Origin: Streptomyces sp. NBC_01451
GTDB taxonomy: Bacteria; Actinomycetota; Actinomycetes; Streptomycetales; Streptomycetaceae
Direction: 5' to 3'
Length of the DNA stretch: 64,000 bases
Assembly: GCF_036227485.1 (NCBI RefSeq)
Contig: NZ_CP109479.1
Span: forward strand, 2,232,001 to 2,296,000
The notes under the pieces are model-generated. The model was not told the origin of the DNA and ran no database searches. It worked only from the letters and a program-made list of their open reading frames with translations. This document shows, in pieces, positions 964-31,065 of this stretch; position 1 is the stretch's first letter, and each line of letters begins with the position of its first letter. A program made the position numbers and the translations under genes.

Positions 964-2242
964 CTGGGCGGGCAACGTCACCGCCCGGCCCGCCAGGGAG
1001 GTCACGCCCGCTTCCGTGGAGGAACTGTCCGCGGCCGTGCGGCAGGCAGCCGCGGACGGCCTGAAGGTGAAGGCCGTGGGCACCGGGCACTCCTTCACGG
1101 CGACCGCCGCCACGGACGGGGTGTTGATCCGCCCTCAACTGTTGACCGGCATCCGCAATATCGACCGGGAGAACATGACGGTCACGGTCGAGGCGGGCAC
1201 TCCGCTCAAGAGACTCAACATGGCCCTCGCCCGCGAGGGTCTGTCGCTCACGAACATGGGCGACATCATGGAGCAGACGGTCTCGGGCGCCACCAGCACC
1301 GGCACGCACGGCACGGGCCGCGAGTCGGGCTCGATAGCCGCCCAGATCAAGGGTCTTGAGCTGGTGACGGCGGACGGGTCGGTGCTCGTCTGCTCGGAGA
1401 AGGAGAATCCGGAGGTCTTCGCCTCGGCCCGGGTCGGCATCGGCGCCCTGGGGATCATCACGGCGATCACGTTCGCCGTGGAGCCCCTCTTCCTGCTCAC
1501 CGCCCGCGAGGAGCCGATGACCTTCGACAAGGTCACCAGCACCTTCGACGAACTCTGGGCCGAGAACGAGCACTTCGAGTTCTACTGGTTCCCGCACACC
1601 GGCAACACCAACACCAAGCGCAACAACCGCAGCGCGGGCCCCGAGAAGCCCGTCAGCCGGATCAGCGGCTGGATCGAGGACGAGTTCCTCTCCAACGGCG
1701 TCTTCCAGGCGGCCCAGCTGGTCGGCCGCACGGTGCCCGCCACGATCCCGACGATCGCCCAGATCTCCAGCAAGGCCCTGTCCGCGCGGACGTACACCGA
1801 CATCCCGTACAAGGTCTACACATCGCCGCGCCGGGTGCGCTTCGTGGAGATGGAGTACGCCGTTCCGCGCGAGGCCCTGGTGGCGACGCTGCGCGAACTC
1901 AAGGCGATGGTCGACCGGTCGGACATGCGGATCAGCTTCCCGGTGGAGGTGCGCACGGCCCCGGCGGACGACATCACGCTCTCCACGGCCTCGGGCCGCG
2001 ACAGCGCCTACGTCGCCGTCCACATGTTCCGCGGGACGCCCTACCAGGCGTACTTCACCGCCGCCGAGCGCATCTTCACGGCGCACGAGGGACGGCCGCA
2101 CTGGGGCAAGGTGCACACGCGGGACGCCGAGTACTTCGCCGGGGTCTACCCCCGCTTCGGGGAGTTCACCGCTCTGCGGGACCGGCTCGACCCTGAACGC
2201 CTGTTCCAGAACGACTACTTGCGACGAGTTCTCGGCGCGTAG
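923..2242 (+). CDS. FAD-binding D-arabinono-1,4-lactone oxidase-family protein
   Basis: A 439-residue flavin oxidase of the aldono-lactone/alditol oxidase family. The N-terminal half is a PCMH-type FAD-binding domain with the motif VGTGHSF near residue 52, whose His binds FAD covalently in family members, and a GTHGTG motif near 129. The C-terminal half carries the family's HWGK motif near residue 393. Such enzymes oxidise sugar lactones or polyols with O2; the natural substrate here is unknown. The TTG start at 923 has a GGGGAGG ribosome site five bases upstream; a GTG twelve bases later is in frame but badly spaced. It overlaps the MFS gene, so co-translation is likely. No signal peptide is visible, so it is probably cytoplasmic. 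Confidence 0.87.
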   Translation: MNSTVSGKSGTWRNWAGNVTARPAREVTPASVEELSAAVRQAAADGLKVKAVGTGHSFTATAATDGVLIRPQLLTGIRNIDRENMTVTVEAGTPLKRLNMALAREGLSLTNMGDIMEQTVSGATSTGTHGTGRESGSIAAQIKGLELVTADGSVLVCSEKENPEVFASARVGIGALGIITAITFAVEPLFLLTAREEPMTFDKVTSTFDELWAENEHFEFYWFPHTGNTNTKRNNRSAGPEKPVSRISGWIEDEFLSNGVFQAAQLVGRTVPATIPTIAQISSKALSARTYTDIPYKVYTSPRRVRFVEMEYAVPREALVATLRELKAMVDRSDMRISFPVEVRTAPADDITLSTASGRDSAYVAVHMFRGTPYQAYFTAAERIFTAHEGRPHWGKVHTRDAEYFAGVYPRFGEFTALRDRLDPERLFQNDYLRRVLGA

Positions 2243-2648
2243 CGAAGGAATTGGTTCCGTTTCCGATGTTTACGTGAAGTGCGCTGCCTCCGAGGTCACG
2301 GAGCCGGCGGGGGATCGGCCAACTCGCACTCTCCGGCTGGAATTGGGTGGCGTGCCAATCCACGCACGTGGCCCAAATGGAGTACTGTTGCGAGCCCTGG
2401 GTCCGGTCTCCCGCCTGGGCGTCCGGGGGCTTCCAGGATCGCCAAGAGGGGGCTCGTTGCACAGGGTGACGGAGTTTGTCACTTAGCGTTGCGAATAGAT
2501 AACCGTGGTATAACGGCGAGTTCGGGCCCCTGCCCGACACGCCGGGCAACTCGGCAAGGTTGTGGCAGGCTGCACCCGGGCAGGCCACACTCGACTAGCG
2601 GAAGCAGCGACGCACGTGACGTCGGCAGGCACCACCCGGGAGGTCCCC
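2243..2648. other. Non-coding stretch upstream of sepH
   Basis: About 400 bases without a convincing gene; short open frames here lack ribosome sites and family resemblance. The last 170 bases are less GC-rich and contain a TATAAC hexamer near 2508, a plausible -10 element for sepH, though no well-spaced -35 is evident. Confidence 0.5.
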
Positions 2649-3674
2649 ATGCCCGAACTGCGTGTCGTGGCCGTCTCTAACGACGGCACACGGCTGGTGC
2701 TGAAGGCTGCGGACAGCACGGAGTACACGCTTCCGATCGATGAGCGTCTGCGCGCCGCGGTACGCGGCGACCGTCCCCGCCTCGGCCAGATCGAGATCGA
2801 GGTGGAGAGTCATCTCCGCCCCCGCGACATCCAGGCACGCATACGTGCCGGCGCGTCCGCGGAAGAGGTGGCGCAGCTCGCCGGGATTCCGGTGGACCGC
2901 GTACGCCGCTTCGAGGGCCCCGTGCTGGCCGAGCGAGCCTTCATGGCCGAGCGGGCCCGGAAGACTCCGGTCCGTCGGCCCGGTGAGAACGCCGGTCCAC
3001 AGCTCGGCGAAGCCGTGCAGGAGCGGCTGACGATCCGTGGCGCCGAGAAGGACACCGTCCAGTGGGACTCGTGGCGCCGCGACGACGGCACCTGGGAAGT
3101 CCTGCTGGTCTACCTGGTGGCCGGCGAACCGCACTCGGCGAGCTGGACGTACGACCCGCCCCGGCGGCTCGTACAGGCCGTCGACGAGGAGGCCCGCTCG
3201 CTGATCGGCGAGTCGGACGACCTCGCGGCGCCCGAGCCCAGTTTTCCGTTCGTACCACGCATCGCCCGGCTGCCGCGCGACCGCCCGCTGGACCGCCCGG
3301 TCCTGCCCGCGCCGTCGTCCGAGCTCACCGAGGAGGGCGTGAGCGCGAGCGAGCGGGACTCGCTGACGAGCCTTCTGGAAGCGGTGCCGAGTTTCCGCGG
3401 CGACATGGTCGTGCCGGAACGCCCTTCCTCCACGGAAGTCGTGGAGGAACCGGCAGCCGAACCCGAGGTGGAGGAGCCCCCGGCTCCCGCGGCCTCGGCC
3501 GGCTCCGCGTACGCGGACGTGCTCATGCCCCGCTCGGTCGGCGCCCACCGGGACCGACTGGTCGGTGCCACCGACCGCCAGGCGGAGGCGGACGGCGTCC
3601 GTCCCGGGCGCAGAGCGGCGGTACCGAGCTGGGACGAGATCGTGTTCGGCACACGCCGGAAGAACAAGGAGTAG
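2649..3674 (+). CDS. sepH: Septation protein SepH
   Basis: A 341-residue protein beginning MPELRVVAVSNDGTRLVLKA, the signature N-terminus of the DUF3071/SepH family. The first ~100 residues form the conserved domain, ending in a helix-turn-helix-like segment (GASAEEVAQLAGIPVDRVRRF). An acidic, Pro-rich low-complexity linker follows, and a short conserved basic tail closes the protein. In Streptomyces, SepH binds FtsZ and promotes filament assembly at vegetative and sporulation septa. The start at 2649 has GGGAGG five bases upstream; in-frame codons further upstream give unconserved sequence. It is followed by a strong terminator shared with the convergent sulfurtransferase. Identification by recognition of the family is strong. 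Confidence 0.95.
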   Translation: MPELRVVAVSNDGTRLVLKAADSTEYTLPIDERLRAAVRGDRPRLGQIEIEVESHLRPRDIQARIRAGASAEEVAQLAGIPVDRVRRFEGPVLAERAFMAERARKTPVRRPGENAGPQLGEAVQERLTIRGAEKDTVQWDSWRRDDGTWEVLLVYLVAGEPHSASWTYDPPRRLVQAVDEEARSLIGESDDLAAPEPSFPFVPRIARLPRDRPLDRPVLPAPSSELTEEGVSASERDSLTSLLEAVPSFRGDMVVPERPSSTEVVEEPAAEPEVEEPPAPAASAGSAYADVLMPRSVGAHRDRLVGATDRQAEADGVRPGRRAAVPSWDEIVFGTRRKNKE

Positions 3675-9335: not shown

Positions 9336-9922
9336 CAGCGGGTGACGTCCGCGGTCGCTTCCGAGAGGGCCTGCGCGAAGACGAGGGCCTGGCGGACCGT
9401 CTCCGGGCCGTCACCGGCCTCGCTGACACGCAGGCTCAGGTCGTCGGCGGTCGAGCTGCCGGTGTAGCCGTGGTCCGCCTCGCAGTTGGGGTCGCCGCAG
9501 GCGGCGGGCTCCAGGTCGATGCGGGAGACGGCGCCCCAGCCGATGGTGAGGACGACCTCGCGGGGCAGCGTGCCCGGCGTGTACGACTCCGGGTTGGCGA
9601 CGACCCTGCTGACGACGACGGACGAGATACGGCCCAGCTTCACGGATTCCGTGGACGTGGTGGCGTACGGCGTCGGGGACGTGGTGTCCTCGGCCTGCTC
9701 GTCGGTGTGGCTGACGATGAAACGATTGCCCGTGAGGACGAGCACGGTCACGTGCCGACGCACCTCGTTCGCGTCGAATGTCGTCTCCTGGTGGACCAGG
9801 TACGACCGGATGGAGTCGCCGCCGATCGCGGCCTCCACCGCCTCGGCCACGAGGGCCGGGTAGTAGCCGCTGCGCTCGATCGCCGCTCGCAGCCCCTGGG
9901 TCGACGTACTGGTCTTGGCCAT
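9335..9922 (-). CDS. DUF5998 family protein
   Basis: A 195-residue protein beginning MAKTSTSTQGLRAAIERSGY, which I recognise as the actinobacterial DUF5998 family. It is predicted to be soluble alpha/beta, with a possible metal-binding pair in ACGDPNCEADH near residue 140. No function is established. It lies 40 bases downstream of patA and overlaps the phosphodiesterase start by one base, so it belongs to the same transcription unit. The tight coupling to the phosphodiesterase suggests a shared role, which is inference. Confidence 0.78.
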   Translation of the reverse strand: MAKTSTSTQGLRAAIERSGYYPALVAEAVEAAIGGDSIRSYLVHQETTFDANEVRRHVTVLVLTGNRFIVSHTDEQAEDTTSPTPYATTSTESVKLGRISSVVVSRVVANPESYTPGTLPREVVLTIGWGAVSRIDLEPAACGDPNCEADHGYTGSSTADDLSLRVSEAGDGPETVRQALVFAQALSEATADVTR

Positions 9923-9962: not shown

Positions 9963-12836
9963 TCAGTACACAGGAAGTGTCCTGGGACCCAGGTCGTCAC
10001 GGGCGGGCGGCGGCGCCAACCGCACCGACGCCCCGAGCACGCTCACGCCGTGCTGTGCGACGACCACCGGCTCCAGCGACACGGCGATGACCTCGGGGTG
10101 ATCGTCCACGAGCCGCGACACCCTGAGCAGCAGTTCTTCCAGCGCCCCCGTGTCGACCGGCGCCGAGCCGCGCCAGCCGAAGAGGAGCGGCGCCGTCCGG
10201 ATGGACCGGATCAGCGACGCCGCGTCGCGGTCGGTGACCGGTATCAGTCGGTGCGCGATGTCCCCGAGCAGCTGCGAGGCGGGTCCGGCGAGCCCGAAGG
10301 AGAGCACCGCGCCGGCCGCCGGGTCGATCACCGCCCGTACGACGGTGTCGACTCCCCGCGGTGCCATCCCCTGCACCACCGGCCGCACCTCCTCAGGGCT
10401 CCCGAAGAGGCCGGTCAGTTCGGCGTACGCCCGCCGCAGTTGCTCCTCGTCCGCGAGATCCAGGCGTACGCCGCCGAGGTCGGCGCGGTGCCGCAGGTGC
10501 GGGGCGGTGGCCTTGAGGGCGACGGGGTATCCGAGGGTCCGCGCGGCGGCCACGGCGTCCTCGGGGTTCGGGGCGGGCAAAGCTCCGCGCACCGGGATGC
10601 CGTATGTCCCGAGCAGCTCGCACGTCTCGTCCGCGCCGAGGGTGAGCCCCTGCCCGCGCGCGAGGAGCCCGCCGATCAGCTCGGCGGCCCCCTTCTCGTC
10701 GATGTCCGCGTCGATGGACTCGGGCACCCTGCCGGGCTCGGCGGCCTCCCGCCGCCACTGCGCGTACTTCACGGCTTCCCCGAGGGCCCGTACGGCGCGC
10801 TCGGCGGCGGGGTAGGCGGGGATGAGACGGGAGCAGGAACCGGGGGCGGGCGGGGCCGGGGACGCCGGGGCCTGCGAAACCGGCGCGGAGGCCGGCCGTT
10901 CCGCCCCGGGGGTCGGCAGGCGTTCCGCCACTGCGGTGCCGGGTGCCGGTGAACCTGTCTGCGGGGCGGTGCTGGCGGCGGCCGACAGCGCCTCCGCCAG
11001 TCCCCCGAGCTCCACATGAACCACCAGTACCGGCTTCCCGGGTACCTCCGCCGCGGCCGACCGCAGGGCCTCGGCCAACGCGGCGTCCCCGGGGGTGCCC
11101 TCCCCCACCGTGGGGATTGCGGTGACGACGACCGCATCGCTCGCCTCGTCCGCCAGCGCCGCAGACAGTGCCCGCTGGAAGTCCTCGGGCGACGCCCCCG
11201 TCGTCAGGTCCAGCGGCGCCAGCGGCTGGAGCCCCTCGGAGAGGCACGCGTCGTACGTCAGCAGCCCCAGCGACTCCGAGTTCCCCAGGATCGCCACCCG
11301 CGGCCCGGCGGGCAGCGGCTGCCGGGCCAGCAGCAGCCCCGCGTCGACCAGCTCGGTGATCGTGTCCACCCGGATCACACCGGCCTGCCGCAGCAGCTCG
11401 GACACCGTCGCGTGCGGCAACCGCGTGGCCCGTACGGCATGCCCCTGGGGAGCGGCGCCGCCGTGCCGCGTCCCCTGTACGACCACCAGCGGCTTCGCCG
11501 CCGCCGTGCGCCGCGCGAGGCGGGTGAACTTGCGCGGGTTGCCGATGGATTCGAGGTACATGAGGACGACGTCGGTGTCCGGGTCGTCGTACCAGTACTG
11601 GAGTACGTCGTTGCCCGACACGTCGGCCCGGTTGCCGGACGAGACGAAGGTCGACACCCCGGTGACCCCGGTGACTCCTCCCCCGCGCCGGTGCAGCCGG
11701 GACAGCAGCGCGATCCCGATGGCCCCGGACTGCGCGAACAGCCCGATCCGCCCGGGCCTCGGCATCTCGGGGGCGAGCGACGCGTTCAGCCGGACGTCCT
11801 GCGCCGTGTTGATGACGCCGAAGGCGTTGGGGCCGATGATGCGCATCCCGTACGTGCGCGCGTGCCGCACGAGTTCGCGCTGCCGCTCCCGTCCCTCGGG
11901 GCCGCTCTCGGCGTACCCGGCGGAGACCACGACGAGCCCCTGCACGCCGTGCTCACCGCACTCGGTGACGACATCGGGGACGTACGCGGCCGGGACGGCG
12001 ACGACCGCGAGGTCGACGGAGCCCCCGATGTCGCCGACCGACCGGTGGGCCGGCACTCCGTCGATGTCCTTCTGCTCTTCCGGGAAGGCGCTGTTGACCG
12101 CGTACAGCTCACCGGTGAAACCGGCGTCCCTGATGTGGTCGAGGATGCTGCGGCCGACGCCGCCGGGGGCGCGGCCGACGCCGATGACGGCCACGGCGCC
12201 CGGGACGAGCAGTCGCCGTACGGAACGCCCCTCGGCACGCTGCTCCCGCGCGCGCTGGACGGCGAGGGAGCGGTCCGTGGGCTCCAGGTCGAACTCCAGG
12301 CGTACGACGCCGTCCTCGAAGCTGCGCTTCTGGGTGTACCCGGCGTCCGTGAACACCTTGATCATCTTGCTGTTGGCCGGCAGCACCTCGGCGGCGAAGC
12401 GGCGGATGCCGCGCTCGCGGGCGACAGCGGCGATGTGTTCGAGGAGGGCGGAGGCCACGCCCCGGCCCTGGTGCGCGTCCTGCACCAGGAAGGCGACCTC
12501 GGCCTCGTGGGCGGGACCGGAGGCGGGCAGTCCCTCGGCGTCGATGCGGTCGTAGCGTACGGTGGCGATGAACTCGCCGCCGACCGTGGCCGCGAGCCCC
12601 ACCCGGTCCACGAAGTCGTGGTGGGTGAAGCGGTGGACGTCCTTTGCGGACAGGCGCGGATAGGGCGCGAAGAAGCGGTAGTACTTCGACTCGTCCGAGA
12701 CCTGTTCGTAGAAGCTGACCAGCCGGTCGGCGTCGTCCGCCGTGATGGGCCGGACACGGGCGGTGCCGCCGTCGCGCAGCACGACGTCCGCCTCCCAGTG
12801 GGCGGGGTACTCGTGCCGGTCCGCCGAGTTCTGCAT
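9963..12836 (-). CDS. patA: GNAT acetyltransferase fused to NDP-forming acyl-CoA synthetase-like region (PatA type)
   Basis: A roughly 957-residue bifunctional-looking protein. The N-terminal ~190 residues are a GNAT acetyltransferase (VRPITADDADRLVSFYEQV, and acetyl-CoA-binding QGRGVASALLEH). A Rossmann CoA-binding domain follows (VIGVGRAPGGVGRSIL), then a succinyl-CoA-ligase-like flavodoxin domain, a Pro/Ala-rich linker and a C-terminal ATP-grasp domain. GNAT at the N-terminus is the arrangement described for S. lividans PatA, which acetylates and inactivates acyl-CoA synthetases. The ATG at 12836 is the most natural start; a TTG thirty bases upstream is in frame but has no ribosome site. 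It is the first gene of a run with DUF5998, the phosphodiesterase and tdk. Confidence 0.9.
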   Translation of the reverse strand: MQNSADRHEYPAHWEADVVLRDGGTARVRPITADDADRLVSFYEQVSDESKYYRFFAPYPRLSAKDVHRFTHHDFVDRVGLAATVGGEFIATVRYDRIDAEGLPASGPAHEAEVAFLVQDAHQGRGVASALLEHIAAVARERGIRRFAAEVLPANSKMIKVFTDAGYTQKRSFEDGVVRLEFDLEPTDRSLAVQRAREQRAEGRSVRRLLVPGAVAVIGVGRAPGGVGRSILDHIRDAGFTGELYAVNSAFPEEQKDIDGVPAHRSVGDIGGSVDLAVVAVPAAYVPDVVTECGEHGVQGLVVVSAGYAESGPEGRERQRELVRHARTYGMRIIGPNAFGVINTAQDVRLNASLAPEMPRPGRIGLFAQSGAIGIALLSRLHRRGGGVTGVTGVSTFVSSGNRADVSGNDVLQYWYDDPDTDVVLMYLESIGNPRKFTRLARRTAAAKPLVVVQGTRHGGAAPQGHAVRATRLPHATVSELLRQAGVIRVDTITELVDAGLLLARQPLPAGPRVAILGNSESLGLLTYDACLSEGLQPLAPLDLTTGASPEDFQRALSAALADEASDAVVVTAIPTVGEGTPGDAALAEALRSAAAEVPGKPVLVVHVELGGLAEALSAAASTAPQTGSPAPGTAVAERLPTPGAERPASAPVSQAPASPAPPAPGSCSRLIPAYPAAERAVRALGEAVKYAQWRREAAEPGRVPESIDADIDEKGAAELIGGLLARGQGLTLGADETCELLGTYGIPVRGALPAPNPEDAVAAARTLGYPVALKATAPHLRHRADLGGVRLDLADEEQLRRAYAELTGLFGSPEEVRPVVQGMAPRGVDTVVRAVIDPAAGAVLSFGLAGPASQLLGDIAHRLIPVTDRDAASLIRSIRTAPLLFGWRGSAPVDTGALEELLLRVSRLVDDHPEVIAVSLEPVVVAQHGVSVLGASVRLAPPPARDDLGPRTLPVY

Positions 12837-22397: not shown

Positions 22398-23573
22398 TCA
22401 GACCGTCAAAGGCACCGCCACCGGCGGCACGGGTCCCACGTACCGCGCGGCCGGCCGAATGATCTTCGAGTCCTCCGCCTGCTCCAGGATGTTGGCGCTC
22501 CAGCCCACCACCCGGGCCGCCGCGAAGGTCGGGGTGAACATCTCGCGGGGCAGGCCGCACAGTTCCATGACCACGCCCGCGTAGAACTCGACGTTCGTGT
22601 GCAGTTCGCGGCCCGGCTTGAGTTCGGCCAGGATCGCCTCCACCCTCCGTTCGACCTCGACCGCCAGATCGACCAGCGGGCCGCCGAACTGCCCGGCGAT
22701 GCCCCGGAGCATGCGGGAGCGGGGGTCCTCGGTGCGGTAGACCGGGTGGCCGAAGCCCATGATGCGGTCACCGGCGAGAACGCGTGCGCGGATCCAGGCG
22801 TCGATACGGTCCGTCGTCCCGATCGCGTCCAGGGTGTCCAGCGCGCGGCTCGGGGCGCCGCCGTGCAACGGGCCCGACAGGGCTCCCACCGCCCCCACGA
22901 GACAGGCCGCCACGTCCGCCCCCGTCGACGCGATGACCCGTGCCGTGAAGGTTGATGCATTGAATCCGTGATCAATGGTTGAGATCAAGTATTGCTCGAT
23001 CGCCCTGGCGTGCAGCGGGTCCGGCTCCGATCCCGTCAACATGTACAAGTAGTTGGCCGCATACGGGAGGTCGTCCCGCGGCTCCACGGGATCGAGACCC
23101 CGGCCCAGCCGGTGCAGCGCCGTCAGTACGGTCGGCACCGCGGCCGAGGCGACGAGGGCGTCCGCGAGCCGCTCCTCCGCGTCGGTGTCGTACACGGGAC
23201 GGAAGCCCTTCGCCGCACCGAGCAGGGACAGTGCCGTGCGCATGCCGGCCAGCGGCCCGGACCGGCCACTCGCCGCCGCGATCGCCGGCAACGCGGCCCG
23301 CACCTCGTCCGGCAGCCGCCGCAGCGCCGCGGTCTGCGCGGTGAAGGCGGCGAGACGGCCCGCGTCCGGCAGCTCACCATGGGCCAGGAGATGCCAGACA
23401 TCCTCGAAGCCGCGGGTCTGCGCGAGTTCGACGGCGGAGTACTGACGGTAGTGGTAAAAGCCCTCGCGCCCTCTGACGTCACCAATTCGGGTGTCGGTGA
23501 CGACGACGCCCGCGAGTCCTCGCGGTACGTCGACAACGGTGGTTGCGGCTGTATCGGCCCGGTTGTTCGGCAT
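22398..23573 (-). CDS. Citrate synthase-family protein with Asp-to-Glu change at the catalytic site
   Basis: A 391-residue citrate-synthase fold protein. Substrate-binding motifs are present: LHGGAPSRAL with the first catalytic His near 240, and MGFGHPVYR with the second near 280. The third catalytic position, Asp in the usual NVDFYSG, reads NVEFYAG: the codon is GAG. Glu could still abstract a proton but would alter geometry, so activity as citrate or methylcitrate synthase is uncertain. The start has AGGGAGG five to six bases upstream. It diverges from a second citrate-synthase-like gene that carries a DNA-binding domain, with a shared palindrome between. Confidence 0.88.
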   Translation of the reverse strand: MPNNRADTAATTVVDVPRGLAGVVVTDTRIGDVRGREGFYHYRQYSAVELAQTRGFEDVWHLLAHGELPDAGRLAAFTAQTAALRRLPDEVRAALPAIAAASGRSGPLAGMRTALSLLGAAKGFRPVYDTDAEERLADALVASAAVPTVLTALHRLGRGLDPVEPRDDLPYAANYLYMLTGSEPDPLHARAIEQYLISTIDHGFNASTFTARVIASTGADVAACLVGAVGALSGPLHGGAPSRALDTLDAIGTTDRIDAWIRARVLAGDRIMGFGHPVYRTEDPRSRMLRGIAGQFGGPLVDLAVEVERRVEAILAELKPGRELHTNVEFYAGVVMELCGLPREMFTPTFAAARVVGWSANILEQAEDSKIIRPAARYVGPVPPVAVPLTV

Positions 23574-23625
23574 GTTTCCTCCCTGAACTTGATTCGACTG
23601 TCCATGATTGACTGAAACGATGTCA

Positions 23626-23644
23626 ATATTGATTGAATCAATAT
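23626..23644. promoter_or_regulatory. 19-bp palindrome between divergent citrate-synthase-like genes
   Basis: A perfect palindrome with nine-base arms, ATATTGATT and its complement around a central G. It is strikingly AT-rich for this genome. It lies 53 bases upstream of the minus-strand gene and 28 bases upstream of the plus-strand gene, where an operator for both is expected. Partial copies (TTGATTC, TGATTGA) lie at 23588-23613. Confidence 0.75.
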
Positions 23645-23671
23645 GTAGTCCATGCGGATACGGTGACCCCC

Positions 23672-24928
23672 ATGCGCGATCAGGAACCCGCCCCCGACCA
23701 CACTGGCCGCCGGCTGAGCACCAAGGAGACCGCCGAACTGCTCGGCGTGAAGCCCGAGACCGTGTACGCGTACGTGAGTCGCGGTCAGCTCAGCAGCCGA
23801 CGCGATCCCGGGGGCCGAGGCAGCACCTTCGACGCCACGGAGGTGGAGGCGCTCGCCCGCCGCAACAAACGGGAGGGCAGCGGGAGTTCGTCCTCCGGCG
23901 GCGAGCTGTCCGTACGGACCCGGCTCACCCTCATCGACAAGGACCGCTACTACTTCCGGGGTGTCGACGCCGCCGAGCTGGCCACACGACACTCCTACGA
24001 GGAAGTCGCCGAATGGCTGTGGACCGGCACCCTGCGCCCCGGGGCCTCCTTCACCGCGCCCAAGGCCTCCGTCACCGCCGCCCGCCGCTCCGTCAACGCC
24101 CTGCCGGAGCACAGCGACCCGGTCGACCGGCTCCGGGTCGCCGCCATCGCCGCGGCAGCAGTCGATCCGCTCCGCTTCGACCTCTCCGAGGGCACCGTCC
24201 TGGGCACCGCACGCACCCTCATCCCCACCCTGGTCGCCGCCCTGCCGCCACGCGCACCCGGCCACCGTGACGACGGACCACTGGCCCACCGCCTCTGGGC
24301 CCGGCTCACCGTCCGGATCGCCGACGAGGCGTCGCTGCGCACCCTGGACACGGCACTCGGGCTCCTCGTCGACCACGACCTGGCCGCCTCGACGCTCGCC
24401 GTACGCGTCGCCGCGTCCGCCCGCGCGCACCCCTACGCGGCCGTCTCGGCAGGGCTCGGCGTCCTGGAAGGCCCGCTCCACGGCGCCGCCAGCGGCCTGG
24501 CGCACCGGATGCTCCTCGACGTGCTCGACGAGGGGGACGCGGCTCCCGTCGTCGCGGACGAGCTGCGCGCGGGCCGCCGCGTCCCCGGGCTCGGTCACCG
24601 GCTCTACCCCGGCGAGGACCCACGTGCGCGTGCCCTCTTCGCCCTCCTCGACGAGATGCCCCAGGCCGCGCCCGCCCTCGCCGCGGCGCGGGACGTCGTG
24701 ACGACCGCCGCCCGTCACAGGCCTCTGCACGCCAATGTGGATCTCGCCCTGGCCGTGTTCACCGTCGCCTGCGGCATGGGCGCGTCGGCAGGCGAGACGA
24801 TCTTCGCCATCGCCCGTACGGCGGGCTGGATCGCACACGCCCTGGAGGAGTACGGCGAGCGTCCACTGCGGATGCGCCCGTCCGGAACCTACGTGGGCGA
24901 GCGCCCTCCGCAACCACTCCCGGAGTAA
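23672..24928 (+). CDS. Citrate synthase-like protein with N-terminal helix-turn-helix
   Basis: A 418-residue fusion. Residues ~12-65 form a MerR/excisionase-type helix-turn-helix (LSTKETAELLGVKPETVYAY, then SRRDPGGRGSTFDATEV). The rest is a citrate-synthase domain with LHGAASGLAH, GLGHRLYPG and NVDLALAV, so the three catalytic positions (His, His, Asp) are present. A DNA-binding domain on a metabolic enzyme suggests it senses oxaloacetate, acyl-CoA or citrate and controls transcription, perhaps of itself and its divergent neighbour. This is inference. There is no good ribosome site at the ATG; translation may be leaderless, or an earlier TTG/GTG may be used. Confidence 0.85.
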   Translation: MRDQEPAPDHTGRRLSTKETAELLGVKPETVYAYVSRGQLSSRRDPGGRGSTFDATEVEALARRNKREGSGSSSSGGELSVRTRLTLIDKDRYYFRGVDAAELATRHSYEEVAEWLWTGTLRPGASFTAPKASVTAARRSVNALPEHSDPVDRLRVAAIAAAAVDPLRFDLSEGTVLGTARTLIPTLVAALPPRAPGHRDDGPLAHRLWARLTVRIADEASLRTLDTALGLLVDHDLAASTLAVRVAASARAHPYAAVSAGLGVLEGPLHGAASGLAHRMLLDVLDEGDAAPVVADELRAGRRVPGLGHRLYPGEDPRARALFALLDEMPQAAPALAAARDVVTTAARHRPLHANVDLALAVFTVACGMGASAGETIFAIARTAGWIAHALEEYGERPLRMRPSGTYVGERPPQPLPE

Positions 24929-24983: not shown

Positions 24984-25002
24984 TCAGGTTAGGCTCACCT
25001 CT
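24984..25002 (+). promoter_or_regulatory. Iron box (DmdR/IdeR/DtxR-type operator)
   Basis: The 19 bases match the actinobacterial iron-box consensus at 16 positions, with core AGGTTAGGCTCACCT. It ends at the base before the GTG start of the next gene. In Streptomyces, DmdR1 with Fe(II) binds such boxes and represses. Confidence 0.85.
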
Positions 25003-25941
25003 GTGAGTAGGTGCGCAACCGTCTCCCGGGACCTCGACGAGCCCATCGCGGGAACCGCCGCGACCGCGAGGACGTGGCTGCTGCTGGAGCAGCCGGGCCC
25101 GTGGGGTGCCCAGGCGCTCACCATGAGCCACCTGGACCCCGGACTCGGCCGCGCCCTGGAGAAGGCCGCGGAGGGCACCGGCGTACGGATCGCACTGATC
25201 CGCCGCCCCGGACGCCACGCCGACTTCGGGCAACCTGCCGTACGCCAGGTGTACGCGGCCCACACCACGCCGGGCAACGTCTGGCTGCGCAGCGCCACCA
25301 CCAGAACCCCCGAACAGCTGCTCGACCTCGACTTCGCCGCGCTCGGCAGGGGCGCCCCGCAGTCCTTCGACGCCGCGCTCCAGGGGCGGCCCCACACCGG
25401 CGAACCGCTCGCGCTCGTCTGCACCAACGGCAAACGCGACCGCTGCTGCGCGTTGCTGGGCCGCCCCCTCGCCGCCGAACTGGCCGCCTCCGGGGTCGAG
25501 GGCGCCTGGGAGGTCACGCACCTCGGCGGACACCGCTTCTCGCCGACACTGCTCGTCCTGCCGTACGGATACGCGTACGGCCGCGCCCAGGCCGCGCACG
25601 TCAAGGAGATCCTCCAGGGCGTGCGCGAAGGGCGTGTCGTCGTGGAGGGCTGTCGCGGCGGCTCAGCCTGGGAGCGGCCCGGACAGGCAGCGGAACTGGC
25701 CGTCCGCTCGGCGGCGCGCGAGTACGCGGCGGACGCGCTGAGCGTCGTACGGACTGACGGCCCGGCGCCGCACTGGGAGGTGACCGTCGCCCACACGGAC
25801 GGGCGCCGGTGGAGCGTCGCGGTGGCCCAGGGCGCCTCACTGCCGCCTCGCCCGGAGAGCTGCGGATCGGCGTTGGGTGCGCCGGCGCGGATGGACGTGC
25901 TGGCGGTGCGCGAACTGGAGTCCACGGCTCCGACGCGCTGA
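25003..25941 (+). CDS. Sucrase/ferredoxin-like (thioredoxin-fold 2Fe-2S) family protein
   Basis: A 312-residue protein of the sucrase/ferredoxin-like family. The signature CTNGKRDRCCALLGRP lies near residue 146, followed by HLGGHRFSPTLLVLPYG near 178; the Cys and His residues could bind a 2Fe-2S cluster in a thioredoxin-like fold. Despite the family name, sugar hydrolysis is not established. The gene begins immediately after an iron box, which suggests expression under iron limitation, so a role in iron handling or siderophore reduction is plausible inference. The GTG start abuts the operator, leaving no room for a ribosome site, so the transcript may be leaderless or an internal start may be used. 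Confidence 0.85.
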   Translation: MSRCATVSRDLDEPIAGTAATARTWLLLEQPGPWGAQALTMSHLDPGLGRALEKAAEGTGVRIALIRRPGRHADFGQPAVRQVYAAHTTPGNVWLRSATTRTPEQLLDLDFAALGRGAPQSFDAALQGRPHTGEPLALVCTNGKRDRCCALLGRPLAAELAASGVEGAWEVTHLGGHRFSPTLLVLPYGYAYGRAQAAHVKEILQGVREGRVVVEGCRGGSAWERPGQAAELAVRSAAREYAADALSVVRTDGPAPHWEVTVAHTDGRRWSVAVAQGASLPPRPESCGSALGAPARMDVLAVRELESTAPTR

Positions 25942-26079: not shown

Positions 26080-27831
26080 ATGGGTATGAGCCCCACTCCC
26101 CCTGGACGCCGCCTGCGCCTCGGTCTGCCGCGGCGGATGTTCTCGCAGGTGCTGCTGATGCAGGTGGCGATCGCCGCAGGAGTCGCGGTGCTCGCGACCG
26201 GGCTGTTCCTCGCACCGCTCAGCGATCAGCTGGACGACCAGGCGATGCGCCGGGCGCTGGCGATCGCGCAGACCACAGCGGCCCAGCCGCAGATCGCCGA
26301 GGACCTGCAGAACACCAGGCCGTCGGCCGGCGGGCCGGTGCAGACCGAGGCGGAGCGGATCCGGAAGGCCAGCGGGGCCGAGTACGTCGTGGTGATGGAC
26401 ATGCGAGGCGTGCGCTGGTCCCACACGGACCCGAAGGAGATCGGCCGGGTCGTCTCCACCGACCCCCGCCAGGCCCTGGCGGGCAAGGAGGTCATGGAGA
26501 TCGACAGCGGCACCCTGGGCCGCTCGGCCCGCGGCAAGGTGCCACTGCGCGACACCACCGGCAGGGTCGTCGGGGCGGTCTCGGTCGGCATCGAGTACGA
26601 CAGCGTGCGCGCCCTGCTGTTCCACGCGATTCCGGGGCTCCTCGCCTACGCGGGCGGCGCCATGGCCGTCGGCGCCCTGGCCGCCTGGGTGATCTCCCGG
26701 AGGGTGCAGCGGCAGACCCGGGACCTGGCCTTCTCGGACATCGCGGCGTTGCTCGCGGAGCGCGAGGCCGTGCTGCACGGCATCCGGGAGGGTGTCGTCG
26801 CCCTGGACCGCACGGGCCGCGTCCGGCTCCTCAACGACGAGGCACAGCGCCTGCTGGGCATCGGCGAAGAGGCCGTCGGCCATTCCCTGGACGAGGCGCT
26901 CGGTGCCGGACGTACGACCGATGTGCTGGCCGGACGCGTGACCGGAACCGACCTGCTCACCGTGCGCGGCCAGCGTGTCCTGGTCGCCAACCGCATGCCC
27001 ACCGACGACGGCGGCGCCGTGGCCACCCTGCGCGACCGCACCGAGCTGGAGCAGCTCGGCCGCGAACTCGACTCCACGCACGGTCTGCTCGACGCACTGC
27101 GCGCCCAGGACCACGAACACGCCAACCGCATGCACACGCTCCTGGGACTGCTCGAACTGGAGATGTACGACGACGCCGCGGAGTTCATCGGCGAGGTGGT
27201 GGGCGACCATCGGGCCACGGCGGAACAGGTGGCCGAGAAGATCCGGGATCCGCTGCTCGCCGCGCTGCTGGTCGGCAAGGCCACCGTGGCGGCGGAGCGG
27301 GGTGTCGCCCTGTGGGTCTCGGACCGGACCCTGCTCCCGGACCGGCTGATCGATCCCAGGGGACTGGTCACCGTCGTCGGCAACCTGGTCGACAACGCGC
27401 TGGACGCCGTCGCCGGCACCGCGCACGCGCGCGTGGAGGTCGAACTGCGCGCGGAGGGCCGGACAGCGGTTCTCAGGGTGCGCGACACGGGGCCCGGAAT
27501 CCCGGCGGAACAGCGCGAGTTGATCTTCACGGAGGGATGGTCCACGAAGAAGCCCCCGGCGCACGGCAAGCGCGGGATCGGGCTTCCCCTGGTACGCCGG
27601 CTCGCGGAGCGGCAGGGCGGCAGCGCGCGCGTGGACGAGGCCGAGGGCGGGGGCGCGGAGTTCACGGTCGTGCTGCCGGAGGCACTCACGGAGCCGGACC
27701 CCGAGCCGGAATCCCGGCACAGCCACATCGCGGAGGCGGAACACATGCGTGTCCCGGACACGGAACCGTCCCCGGCGCCGGCCACCACCACGGCCACCGG
27801 CGCCTCCGCCGCACCGGAGGAGTCGAGATGA
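26080..27831 (+). CDS. DcuS/CitA-family sensor histidine kinase
   Basis: A 583-residue membrane kinase. One helix at ~20-45 and another near 185-210 flank an extracytoplasmic PAS-like sensor (GAEYVVVMDMRGVRWSHTDP) of the type that binds citrate or C4-dicarboxylates. A cytoplasmic PAS (~225-330) and a transmitter follow, with the phospho-acceptor region QDHEHANRMH, N box NLVDNALDAV and G boxes DTGPGIP and RGIGLPLV. The final ~60 residues are a Pro/Glu-rich tail. The stop overlaps the first regulator gene (ATGA). No ribosome site precedes the ATG, so leaderless translation is possible. Nearby transport genes on the other strand could be targets. Confidence 0.92.
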   Translation: MGMSPTPPGRRLRLGLPRRMFSQVLLMQVAIAAGVAVLATGLFLAPLSDQLDDQAMRRALAIAQTTAAQPQIAEDLQNTRPSAGGPVQTEAERIRKASGAEYVVVMDMRGVRWSHTDPKEIGRVVSTDPRQALAGKEVMEIDSGTLGRSARGKVPLRDTTGRVVGAVSVGIEYDSVRALLFHAIPGLLAYAGGAMAVGALAAWVISRRVQRQTRDLAFSDIAALLAEREAVLHGIREGVVALDRTGRVRLLNDEAQRLLGIGEEAVGHSLDEALGAGRTTDVLAGRVTGTDLLTVRGQRVLVANRMPTDDGGAVATLRDRTELEQLGRELDSTHGLLDALRAQDHEHANRMHTLLGLLELEMYDDAAEFIGEVVGDHRATAEQVAEKIRDPLLAALLVGKATVAAERGVALWVSDRTLLPDRLIDPRGLVTVVGNLVDNALDAVAGTAHARVEVELRAEGRTAVLRVRDTGPGIPAEQRELIFTEGWSTKKPPAHGKRGIGLPLVRRLAERQGGSARVDEAEGGGAEFTVVLPEALTEPDPEPESRHSHIAEAEHMRVPDTEPSPAPATTTATGASAAPEESR

Positions 27832-28721: not shown

Positions 28722-29414
28722 ATGATTGACGTCCTGGTAGTGGACGACGACTTGCGTGTCGCAGAGATCAACGCCAGGTACGTGGGCAGGGTTCCCGGAT
28801 TCAGGGTCGCCGCCCGCGCGCACAACGCCGCGCAGGCGCTGGCAGCCGTGCAGCAGGGCCCCATCGACCTGGTGCTGCTCGACCACTACCTGCCCGACCA
28901 GACAGGGCTCGAACTCGTTCACCGCATGCGGGAACAGGGCCACTGCACCGACGTCATCATGATCACGGCGGCGAGCGATGTGGTGACCGTGCAGGCCGCG
29001 ATGCGCGTGGGCGCGCTGCACTACCTGGTCAAGCCGTTCACCTTCGCCGCGCTGCGCACCCGCCTGGACTCCTACGCCGCCCTGCGCCGCACCGTCGAGC
29101 ACGTCGGGGACCGGAGCCACACCGGCCAGGAGCAGGTCGACCGGATCTTCGGCGCCCTGCGCACACCGCCCGCCCCCTCGTCCCCCGACCTTCCGAGCGG
29201 CCACTCGGAACCGACAACGGACCTGATCTGCGGCGTCCTCCACCGCGCCGGCCACCCGCTCTCGGCTCACGAGGTGGCCGCCGAGACAGGCCTGAGCCGC
29301 TCCACGGCCCAGCGCTACCTCCGCCACCTGGAACAGGCAGGCCGCCTCCGCCTGTCCCTCAAGTACGGCGACACGGGCCGCCCCGAACACCGGTACGCAT
29401 GGGTGGCCCCCTGA
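28722..29414 (+). CDS. CitB/DcuR-type response regulator (second copy)
   Basis: A 230-residue paralogue of the preceding regulator, nearly collinear with it: VVDDDLRVAEIN, VLLDHYLPDQTG, LVKPFTFAALR, a variable linker (HVGDRSHTGQEQ), and the DNA-binding SAHEVAAETGLSRSTAQRYL with the same closing LKYGDTGRPEHRYAW. It clearly arose by tandem duplication. It has its own GGGAGAGG ribosome site, and a 213-base gap separates it from the first copy, so it may have its own promoter. No second kinase is adjacent; it may share the kinase or act as an orphan. Confidence 0.92.
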   Translation: MIDVLVVDDDLRVAEINARYVGRVPGFRVAARAHNAAQALAAVQQGPIDLVLLDHYLPDQTGLELVHRMREQGHCTDVIMITAASDVVTVQAAMRVGALHYLVKPFTFAALRTRLDSYAALRRTVEHVGDRSHTGQEQVDRIFGALRTPPAPSSPDLPSGHSEPTTDLICGVLHRAGHPLSAHEVAAETGLSRSTAQRYLRHLEQAGRLRLSLKYGDTGRPEHRYAWVAP

Positions 29415-29472: not shown

Positions 29473-31065
29473 CTAAACAGCCCCCGCACCCGTGAGCGAC
29501 CGCACCTCGGTCTCCGCGTGCTTGGCCTCGTCCGGGTTCTCCGCCGAGGTGACCGTGCCGAGCCAGCCGGCGAGGAATCCCAGCGGGATCGAGACGAGCC
29601 CAGGGTTCTGCAACGGGAAGTACTGGAAGTCCACTCCCGGGAACAGTGATTCGGGGCTTCCCGACACCACGGGCGACAGCAGCACCAGAACCACTGACGG
29701 AATCAGCCCGCCGTACACCGACCACACCGCCCCCCTGGTCGTGAAGCCGCCCCAGAACAGCGAGTAGAGCAACACCGGGAGGTTCGCGGACGCCGCGACA
29801 GCGAAGGCGAGGCCCACCAGGAAGGCGACATTGAGGTCACGGGCCAGCAGGCCGAGGGCGATCGCGACCACGCCGATGCCGACCGCGGCGGTGCGGGCCA
29901 CGGCGACCTCGCTGCGCGGCTTGGCGCGCGGGCGCCGCAACGACGCGTACAGGTCGTGGGCCACGGACGCCGACGACGCGAGGGTGATGCCTGCGACCAC
30001 CGCGAGAATCGTTGCGAAGGCAATGGCGGCGACAATCGCGAACAGAACCGTTCCGCCTGTGGAGTCCGCTCCGCCGCCCAGATCGAGGGCCAGCAGCGGG
30101 ACCGCCGTGTTCCCGGCCGCGTTGGACCCACGGACCGCCTTCGGCCCGACGATCGCCGCCGCACCGAAGCCGAGGACGATCGTCATCAGGTAGAAGCCGC
30201 CGATGAGCCCGATCGACCAGACGACCGATCGGCGTGCGGCCCGAGCCGTCGGCACGGTGTAGAAGCGGGAGAGGATGTGCGGCAGCCCGGCCGTACCCAG
30301 GACGAGGGCGAGCCCCAGGCTCATGAAGTCGAAGCGCGAGGTCCAGTCACCGCCGTACCTCAGACCGGGGGCGAGGAACGCGTCACCGTGACCACTGCGC
30401 TCGGCCGCCGTGCGCAGCAGCTGGTCGAAGTCACCGTGGAACCGCACCAGCACCAGCACGGTCAGTGTGATCGCCCCGCCCATCAGCAGGACCGCCTTGA
30501 CGATCTGGATCCAGGTAGTGGCCCGCATCCCTCCCAACGACACATAGATCACCATGAGCGCGCCGACCGCGATCACCGTCCAGGACTGCGCCGCCTCGCT
30601 CGTCCCGCCCAGCAGCAGCGCGACCAGGCTGCCCGCCCCCACCATTTGCGCCACCAAATACAGAACGGACACCGTGACCGAGGAAGTTCCCGCGGCGATC
30701 CGTACCGGCCGCTCCCGCATCCGCGAGGCGACGACATCGGCCAGCGTGAACCGCCCGCAGTTGCGCACCAGTTCGGCGACGAGGAACAGCACGACGAGCC
30801 AGGCCACCAGGAAGCCCACCGAGTACAGCAGCCCGTCGTAGCCGAAGAGCGCGATGAGGCCCGAGATGCCGAGGAAGGACGCGGCCGACATGTAGTCGCC
30901 CGCGATGGCAAAACCATTCTCCATCGGGGAGAAGAGCCGACCGCCCGCGTAGAACTCCTCCGCCGAGCCCTGCCGGTGACGGCTCACCCACGTGGTGATG
31001 GCCAGCGTGACGGCCACGAACGCGCTGAACAGCACCAGCGCCAGCATCTGATGGTTGCCGGTCAC
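29473..31065 (-). CDS. Sodium:solute symporter, cation/acetate symporter type
   Basis: A 530-residue integral membrane protein of the SSS family with about 13 hydrophobic helices. SAEEFYAGGRLFSPMENGFA and the helix-2 segment AGDYMSAASFLGISGLIALF are characteristic of ActP/MctC acetate and monocarboxylate symporters. It would import acetate or a similar monocarboxylate with sodium. The GTG start overlaps the end of the DUF485 gene by four bases, the usual pairing for this transporter. Two different two-component systems lie on either side, one encoded upstream on the same strand. Confidence 0.92.
   Translation of the reverse strand: MTGNHQMLALVLFSAFVAVTLAITTWVSRHRQGSAEEFYAGGRLFSPMENGFAIAGDYMSAASFLGISGLIALFGYDGLLYSVGFLVAWLVVLFLVAELVRNCGRFTLADVVASRMRERPVRIAAGTSSVTVSVLYLVAQMVGAGSLVALLLGGTSEAAQSWTVIAVGALMVIYVSLGGMRATTWIQIVKAVLLMGGAITLTVLVLVRFHGDFDQLLRTAAERSGHGDAFLAPGLRYGGDWTSRFDFMSLGLALVLGTAGLPHILSRFYTVPTARAARRSVVWSIGLIGGFYLMTIVLGFGAAAIVGPKAVRGSNAAGNTAVPLLALDLGGGADSTGGTVLFAIVAAIAFATILAVVAGITLASSASVAHDLYASLRRPRAKPRSEVAVARTAAVGIGVVAIALGLLARDLNVAFLVGLAFAVAASANLPVLLYSLFWGGFTTRGAVWSVYGGLIPSVVLVLLSPVVSGSPESLFPGVDFQYFPLQNPGLVSIPLGFLAGWLGTVTSAENPDEAKHAETEVRSLTGAGAV

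Follow-up and report, generated by a model that had tools for sequence, protein, structure and literature searches.

An HTH-citrate synthase fusion diverges from a second citrate synthase gene

The window, i. e. the whole stretch of 64 kb that was analysed, contains a divergent pair of citrate-synthase-like genes, one of which encodes a protein with an N-terminal DNA-binding domain, as the preliminary description had proposed: Both products match Pfam Citrate_synt, and the product of the plus-strand gene also matches HTH_17. The interval singled out there, 23574-23671, is exactly the 98-bp gap between the ATG of the minus-strand citrate synthase gene (CS, ATG at 23573) and the ATG of the plus-strand fusion gene (ATG at 23672). 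The locus has the following features:

22398-23573, minus strand: divergent citrate synthase (CS) of the "citrate synthase 2" type, SCO5832-like, presumed target (Pfam, NCBIfam)
23589-23604, no strand: TTGATTCGACTGTCCA, counterpart of the S. coelicolor MtrA site TTGACTTAACTGTCCA, 13 of 16 positions identical by eye (site as given in an excerpt of PMC12323332)
23597-23626, minus strand: predicted CS promoter, with the -35 TTGACA at 23626-23621 in the operator, an 18-bp spacer and the -10 GACAGT at 23602-23597 (sequence)
23621-23644, no strand: candidate operator TGTCAATATTGATTGAATCAATAT with three half-sites of the ATCAA/TTGAT type (sequence; kept in Streptomyces loci; genome-unique)
23623-23632, no strand: most conserved part, the 10-bp palindrome TCAATATTGA (half-sites 1 and 2; cross-phylum loci)
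23626-23644, no strand: perfect 19-bp palindrome, corresponding to half-sites 2 and 3 at the Streptomyces spacing (sequence)
23638-23642, no strand: third half-site TCAAT, at a clade-dependent distance from the core, mostly 5 or 9 bp
23659-23664, plus strand: predicted -10 TACGGT of the fusion gene, leaderless (ATG spacing in Streptomyces loci)
23672-24928, plus strand: HTH-citrate synthase fusion, SCO5831-like, presumed regulator, ATG start (Pfam, structure model)
23711-23887, plus strand: winged HTH domain, residues about 14-72 (HTH_17 match, models, fold matches)
23906-24880, plus strand: citrate-synthase domain, residues about 79-403, with conserved active-site residues (Pfam, residue alignment)

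The palindrome reported earlier, ATATTGATTGAATCAATAT, is indeed perfect over its 19 bp (centre G23635), and the partial half-site copies mentioned with it are present as TCAATATTGA, TTGATTC (from 23589) and TTGACT (23608-23613). By itself, such a palindrome is not rare and proves little, since three perfect ones with arms of 9 bp or longer are present in the window and order-1 resamples have 2.7 on average; when the 98-bp gap is resampled at its own composition, the palindrome arises in 15 of 20,000 cases. The core TTGATTNAATCAA occurs once in the whole 10.27-Mb genome and at one other place if up to one mismatch is allowed. The RNA fold of the palindrome region is no better than that of shuffles (z 0.41), and an RNA hairpin or terminator was rejected on this ground. 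As judged from sequence comparison, the decisive evidence for the palindrome is its conservation across genomes.

The fusion combines a winged HTH with a complete enzyme fold

The listed open reading frame of the fusion begins at TTG 23633, but ATG 23672 is the likelier start because in 27 of the 28 Streptomyces loci measured an ATG is located 12-13 nt past the start of TACGGT, as in a leaderless transcript. The N-terminal part scores above the curated cut-off for HTH_17 (PF12728; 35.8 bits vs 27) and thus qualifies as an HTH_17 domain, and the remainder is a complete Citrate_synt domain (215 bits vs 27). This combination of a DNA-binding domain and a complete enzyme fold is also seen in the AF2 model (mean pLDDT 92.8), in which residues 72-75 between the two parts fall below 50. 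The nearest folds to the modelled HTH are Xis, BldC and MerR-type domains; the domain is borderline for MerR (the Pfam matches are HTH_17/MerR) and fails the NCBIfam model HTH_BldC for the BldC family (23.7 bits vs a cut-off of 77). Foldseek returned M. tuberculosis CitA as the best match of the fusion (E 2.1e-15); none of the 60 solved-structure chains listed, out of 66 matching, covers the HTH, and all match from residue 69 on.

Residues His235, His270, His309, Asp357, Arg318, Arg382 and Arg402, which we take to be the catalytic and substrate residues, are invariant in 29 of 29 fusions. The fusion carries a citrate synthase annotation; it scores below the cut-off of all 21 citrate synthase or citryl-CoA lyase models among the NCBIfam matches listed. 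In a tree of 55 chosen rows, the fusions form one side of a branch with an SH-aLRT value of 100, and by the sequences compared the fusion arose once.

The operator is predicted to be part of the promoter of the partner gene

The partner CS matches Citrate_synt with 370 bits (cut-off 27) and also exceeds the cut-off of NCBIfam PRK12350 (344 bits vs 332). At the position of the catalytic Asp, 24 of 26 non-fusion rows and all 24 Caulobacterales partners read have a Glu (L213, with a partner cut short, was left out of the count). Since B. subtilis CitA (2c6x) and the mycobacterial citrate synthase 2 chains have the same residue, Glu is a trait of this clade of citrate synthases, and we have rejected it as an oddity of the partner.

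The distance between the -10 block of CS and the operator is 28 bp in 26 of the 28 Streptomyces loci measured, and 27 and 29 bp in the other two, whereas the distance between the operator and the -10 of the fusion varies from 25 to 63 bp (L015 and L023 were left out of parts of these measurements). This near-fixed spacing on one side and variable spacing on the other suggests that the operator is built into the CS promoter, with half-site 1 serving as the predicted -35 TTGACA. The distances on the fusion side cluster at about 25, 35, 47-49 and 57-58 bp among the Streptomyces loci L001-L030, i. e. about one helical turn apart, with 41, 62 and 63 bp as exceptions.

The candidate operator accompanies the gene pair in Streptomyces

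The preliminary description had proposed an alignment of this intergenic region from many Streptomyces species. Among the 30 best Streptomyces loci, 29 have the operator in the gap, and most of these gaps also have an upstream block like TTGATTCGACTGTCCATG. All 61 Streptomyces genomes gave matches to the fusion query, the weaker ones being mostly citrate synthases without an HTH; the fusion itself is present in 36 genomes (E < 1e-150), and a CS ortholog was likewise counted in 36 of the 61. Both genes were found in 35 genomes (G012, with a split CS, included), and 33 of these have the operator with at most one mismatch at the pair, as compared to none at such a place in the 26 genomes with one or neither gene (Fisher p 3e-15, ignoring relatedness). 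By eye, the two exceptions are an operator with one extra spacer base (G060) and an operator in which TCAATATTGA is kept and the third half-site is degraded (G031). The reversed pattern, used as a control, had three matches in the 61 genomes; operator matches with one mismatch were also found elsewhere in three genomes that lack the pair.

The candidate operator is found beside fusions of distant bacteria

Among 396 sampled genomes of Actinomycetota, 39 have a match at 1e-40 or better, ten of them Streptomyces. Twenty non-Streptomyces loci (L045-L064) were fetched, and 19 of them are testable, L049 being left out as its contig begins inside the fusion; 18 of the 19 have an exact TCAAYNTTGA, and one has it with one mismatch. 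A scan of named genomes identified at least 590 relatives, the best 80 of which were kept for operator counts. The operator was no part of this search, which relied on the HTH motif TLYAYVSRG and a CS motif; the invariance of the HTH among these proteins is therefore partly selected. The 80 loci include many near relatives (Bradyrhizobium, Streptomyces) and many MAGs. In 72 of these best 80 of at least 590 loci, TCAAYNTTGA is present in the 200 bp before the fusion, as compared to a mean of 0.15 for shuffles and 0 of 1010 downstream or flanking windows, in agreement with the conservation across species. TCAAYRTTGA with at most one mismatch was found in 78 of the 80 (shuffle mean 2.35; 10 of 1010 windows), and the longer form with the third half-site in 61 (0 in shuffles; 0 of 1010 windows). 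By phylum of the record organism, the exact core is present in 35 of 38 loci of Actinomycetota, 31 of 32 of Pseudomonadota, one of two of Myxococcota, the single loci of Acidobacteriota and Gemmatimonadota, and three of five unplaced loci; the single locus of Chloroflexota is without it there and has a site 1.05 kb upstream. L104 is the only one of the best 80 that has no operator site within 320 bp. Of the palindrome as initially described, conservation across species has stood and the 19-mer as such has not: The element that is kept is TCAAYNTTGA followed by a downstream TCAAY at a variable distance, among the best 80 loci most often 5 or 9 bp.

In an even sample of 120 Caulobacterales genomes, 36 match, and 30 loci were fetched. 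All 25 loci with a divergent CS have the core (22 exact, three with one mismatch); among the five without CS (L225, L230-L233, left out of the HTH check), it is present in two and absent from three. A strict operator pattern occurs in 16 of 24 genomes of other taxa, at a single place in 15 (one of these places being read on both strands) and at two places in G457; the reversed control matched once in the 24. G457 is the Trinickia genome of L148, and its second strict match, L195 (G457:C23:3844-3867), lies away from that of L148.

Loss, separation and replacement of the partner gene

Individual genomes illustrate what becomes of the operator upon rearrangement of the pair. The operator is missing from two genomes in which a fusion but no CS was found, G013 (no CS ortholog at 1e-100) and G251 (none within the 1.5 kb fetched), and likewise from G027, which has CS without the fusion; in G022, both genes are reduced to pieces. 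In G032, where the pair is not divergent, each gene has its own operator, at 10990-11009 before CS (exact) and at 9567-9586 before the fusion (one mismatch), and in the likewise non-divergent L135 one copy of the core precedes CS (-1234) and another the fusion (-26). L054 and L145 have another gene in front of the fusion, and here the operator is found in the gap adjoining CS. Where CS is cut, in G012, the operator remains with the fusion. The loss of the operator together with one gene and its doubling upon separation of the two fit the prediction for a link between a regulator and its target. The CS of G012 (L095, L096) has residues 14-106 at the operator and residues 88-388 about 4.5 Mb away, which reflects either a rearrangement or an assembly fault.

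Among the best 80 of at least 590 loci, 65 have CS as the partner, on the opposite strand and upstream, in a few cases by more than 1 kb. Five loci (Actinomadura, Nonomuraea, Thermoactinospora and two MAGs) have a homocitrate-synthase-like HMGL protein instead, four a class III CoA-transferase and one a same-strand CS; no partner was found in the remaining five of these 80 loci, L104, L120, L132, L162 and L172, and in L132 a DUF2332 open reading frame overlaps the upstream side. The HMGL-type synthases, to which Re-citrate synthase belongs, likewise catalyse the condensation of acyl-CoA and oxo-acids. The four HMGL partners scanned are below every NCBIfam cut-off among those listed. That the operator is kept beside an unrelated partner enzyme is as predicted for a regulator and its target. 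In L114, a MAG of Gemmatimonadota, the operator precedes a leuB-like 3-isopropylmalate dehydrogenase gene (1707-2786, minus strand) that is followed by CS; it is possible that the two genes form a target operon.

Discussion

Because it recurs beside the same gene in several distant bacterial groups, the palindrome is very probably the site at which an enzyme-derived gene switch binds DNA. The citrate-synthase-derived transcription factor that had been suggested for this locus is supported as an inference from comparison: The site is conserved, absent after gene loss and doubled upon separation of the genes. We consider it likely that the fusion is a one-component transcription factor derived from citrate synthase that controls the divergent CS gene and itself via the operator. 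The comparison of sequences reveals the fusion, the conserved operator, the co-loss, the duplication upon separation, the survival of the operator with a replaced partner and the phasing with the CS promoter; from these we infer that the fusion binds the operator, that it does so as a dimer, the sign of the control and the ligand.

According to our model, the BldC/MerR-like winged HTH would read TCAAYNTTGA and then TCAAY 4-9 bp further on in the control region that the two genes share. It would most likely do so as a dimer joined through the citrate-synthase body. On the operator, this dimer would block the CS promoter and damp its own. The intact active site would be the most likely sensor: Oxaloacetate, an acyl-CoA or the product may alter DNA binding, and we propose that the dedicated enzyme would thus be made when its chemistry is needed. 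With key residues invariant, the fusion probably senses a citrate-synthase ligand in this site, although an enzyme that is active would account for the intact catalytic residues as well. It is about an even bet that a citrate synthase paralog with an intact site itself serves as a transcription factor, gated by its substrate or product complex, and thus directly reads the supply of acyl-CoA and oxo-acid where the citrate cycle begins, and that a single fusion event gave rise to a module, recognisable by TCAAYNTTGA across about six phyla, that governs unrelated enzymes of similar chemistry.

The sign of the control is the point at which another reading comes closest. We favour repression over activation with some reserve, because the operator overlaps the predicted -35 of CS and is located either at the -35 region of the fusion promoter or upstream of it. 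The fusion might instead activate, e. g. with a site centred at about -40 in both promoters from which it aids RNA polymerase. The position of the operator centre near the -35 of both predicted promoters and the resemblance of the modelled HTH fold to MerR-type activators would suit such a role; however, a good -35 (TTGACA) of CS inside the operator would favour occlusion, and the 19-20 bp spacer arrangement is not seen, so that activation appears unlikely to us. It is quite improbable that the fusion acts as a functional citrate or methylcitrate synthase and that its HTH serves some other purpose or none. Its annotation as citrate synthase and the invariance of the catalytic His, His and Asp and of the substrate arginines agree with an enzyme, but its failure to reach any NCBIfam citrate synthase cut-off among the models listed does not, and an enzyme would leave the conserved operator and the HTH unexplained. 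Moreover, CitC of C. crescentus, which is probably a fusion of this kind, fails to replace GltA in E. coli according to an excerpt of PMC7083601, although this failure may have other causes.

Even less probable is the idea that the palindrome is the site of another regulator, such as MtrA, GlnR or an unlinked factor, and that the fusion is just a neighbour. The available excerpt of PMC12323332 reports that MtrA of S. coelicolor shifts a probe from the gap between sco5831 and sco5832, and that the mtrA mutant has raised levels of both genes at late time points. However, the counterpart of the reported MtrA site, 23589-23604, is outside the operator (23621-23644) and beside the palindrome, so the palindrome is not the MtrA site given in that excerpt. 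Furthermore, G027 has lost the operator with the fusion despite retaining CS, and the operator is found again next to fusions of other phyla and where the partner is another enzyme. Binding of MtrA beside the operator, by which both genes are lowered in the excerpted report, indicates that other control exists at this locus. We give hardly any credit to a chance AT-rich repeat or an RNA hairpin: The number of such palindromes expected in 64 kb would allow for chance, but the conservation across genomes and phyla refutes it, and a hairpin is at odds with the RNA fold and with the position of the palindrome upstream of both predicted starts.

Two probably related gene pairs have been studied. 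Judging by how they are described, as a CS pair near a DcuS-type kinase, SCO5831/SCO5832 (citA3/citA4) appear to correspond to the pair studied here, with the MtrA site in the same gap. The excerpt of PMC12323332 treats them as two putative citrate synthases and has no mention of an HTH or a palindrome. In excerpts of published work, SCO5831 is reported to be more abundant under ample phosphate, and it appears in an RNA-seq table. The second pair is that of Caulobacter. C. vibrioides, presumably the same species as C. crescentus, has an HTH_17-CS protein (P0292), which matches 2c6x (B. subtilis citrate synthase 1) over the C-terminal half with 89 bits, and a Caulobacterales partner matches 2c6x over its full length with 227 bits. 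The excerpt of PMC7083601 describes CitB and CitC of C. crescentus as neighbouring citrate-synthase-like genes, one active and one inactive in E. coli: CitB, with 37% identity to B. subtilis CitA, replaces GltA, and CitC, with 32% identity, does not. CitB is probably the partner and CitC the fusion. In the main text as excerpted, the term HTH is absent, and moonlighting is claimed for the unrelated CitA rather than for CitC. Word searches of open-access PMC articles found no paper on an HTH-citrate synthase regulator; such a paper may exist.

Regulators of the MocR/GabR family combine a winged GntR-type HTH with an aminotransferase fold. As in these proteins, an HTH is fused here to a complete enzyme fold that may act as the sensor, with probable local control of an adjacent metabolic gene, and the conserved operator is found in the control region of the fusion and of its neighbour. 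In contrast to them, the fusion has a citrate synthase body and an HTH of the HTH_17 type and is not homologous; membership in the family was rejected as the Pfam matches are HTH_17/MerR and Citrate_synt. The fusion would thus work like an enzyme-derived regulator of the MocR kind and is no member of that family. CarH, with a MerR-type HTH and a cobalamin-binding domain, differs in sensor domain, ligand and organisms. The nearest HTH folds are those of BldC and the phage excisionases (HTH_17 type), which are small stand-alone proteins, unlike the fusion.

If our interpretation is correct, many entries named "citrate synthase" or "citrate synthase family protein" would in fact be transcription factors, and the annotation of central metabolism would be corrected in Streptomyces, Bradyrhizobium, Caulobacter and others. 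It would also account for the retention of a second citrate synthase beside the fusion and would reveal a sensor that acts directly where the citrate cycle begins, with an operator code that is simple enough for immediate testing in laboratory strains (S. coelicolor SCO5831, C. crescentus citC).

Downstream of the fusion are genes for a DcuS-like sensor kinase (26080-27831), a DcuR-like regulator (28722-29414) and an MctC-like monocarboxylate transporter (29473-31065), and L162 likewise has an sCache-type sensor kinase after the fusion. Which carbon source is involved may be hinted at by the DcuS/MctC neighbourhood. Just before a sucrase/ferredoxin-like gene (open reading frame from 25003), the sequence CAGGTTAGGCTCACCTCTG at 24985-25003 resembles the actinobacterial iron box, the consensus of which we take to be TTAGGTTAGGCTCACCTAA. 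By eye, this same block is present in reversed orientation at the end of the fusion gene in L002, L003, L004, L006 and L010.
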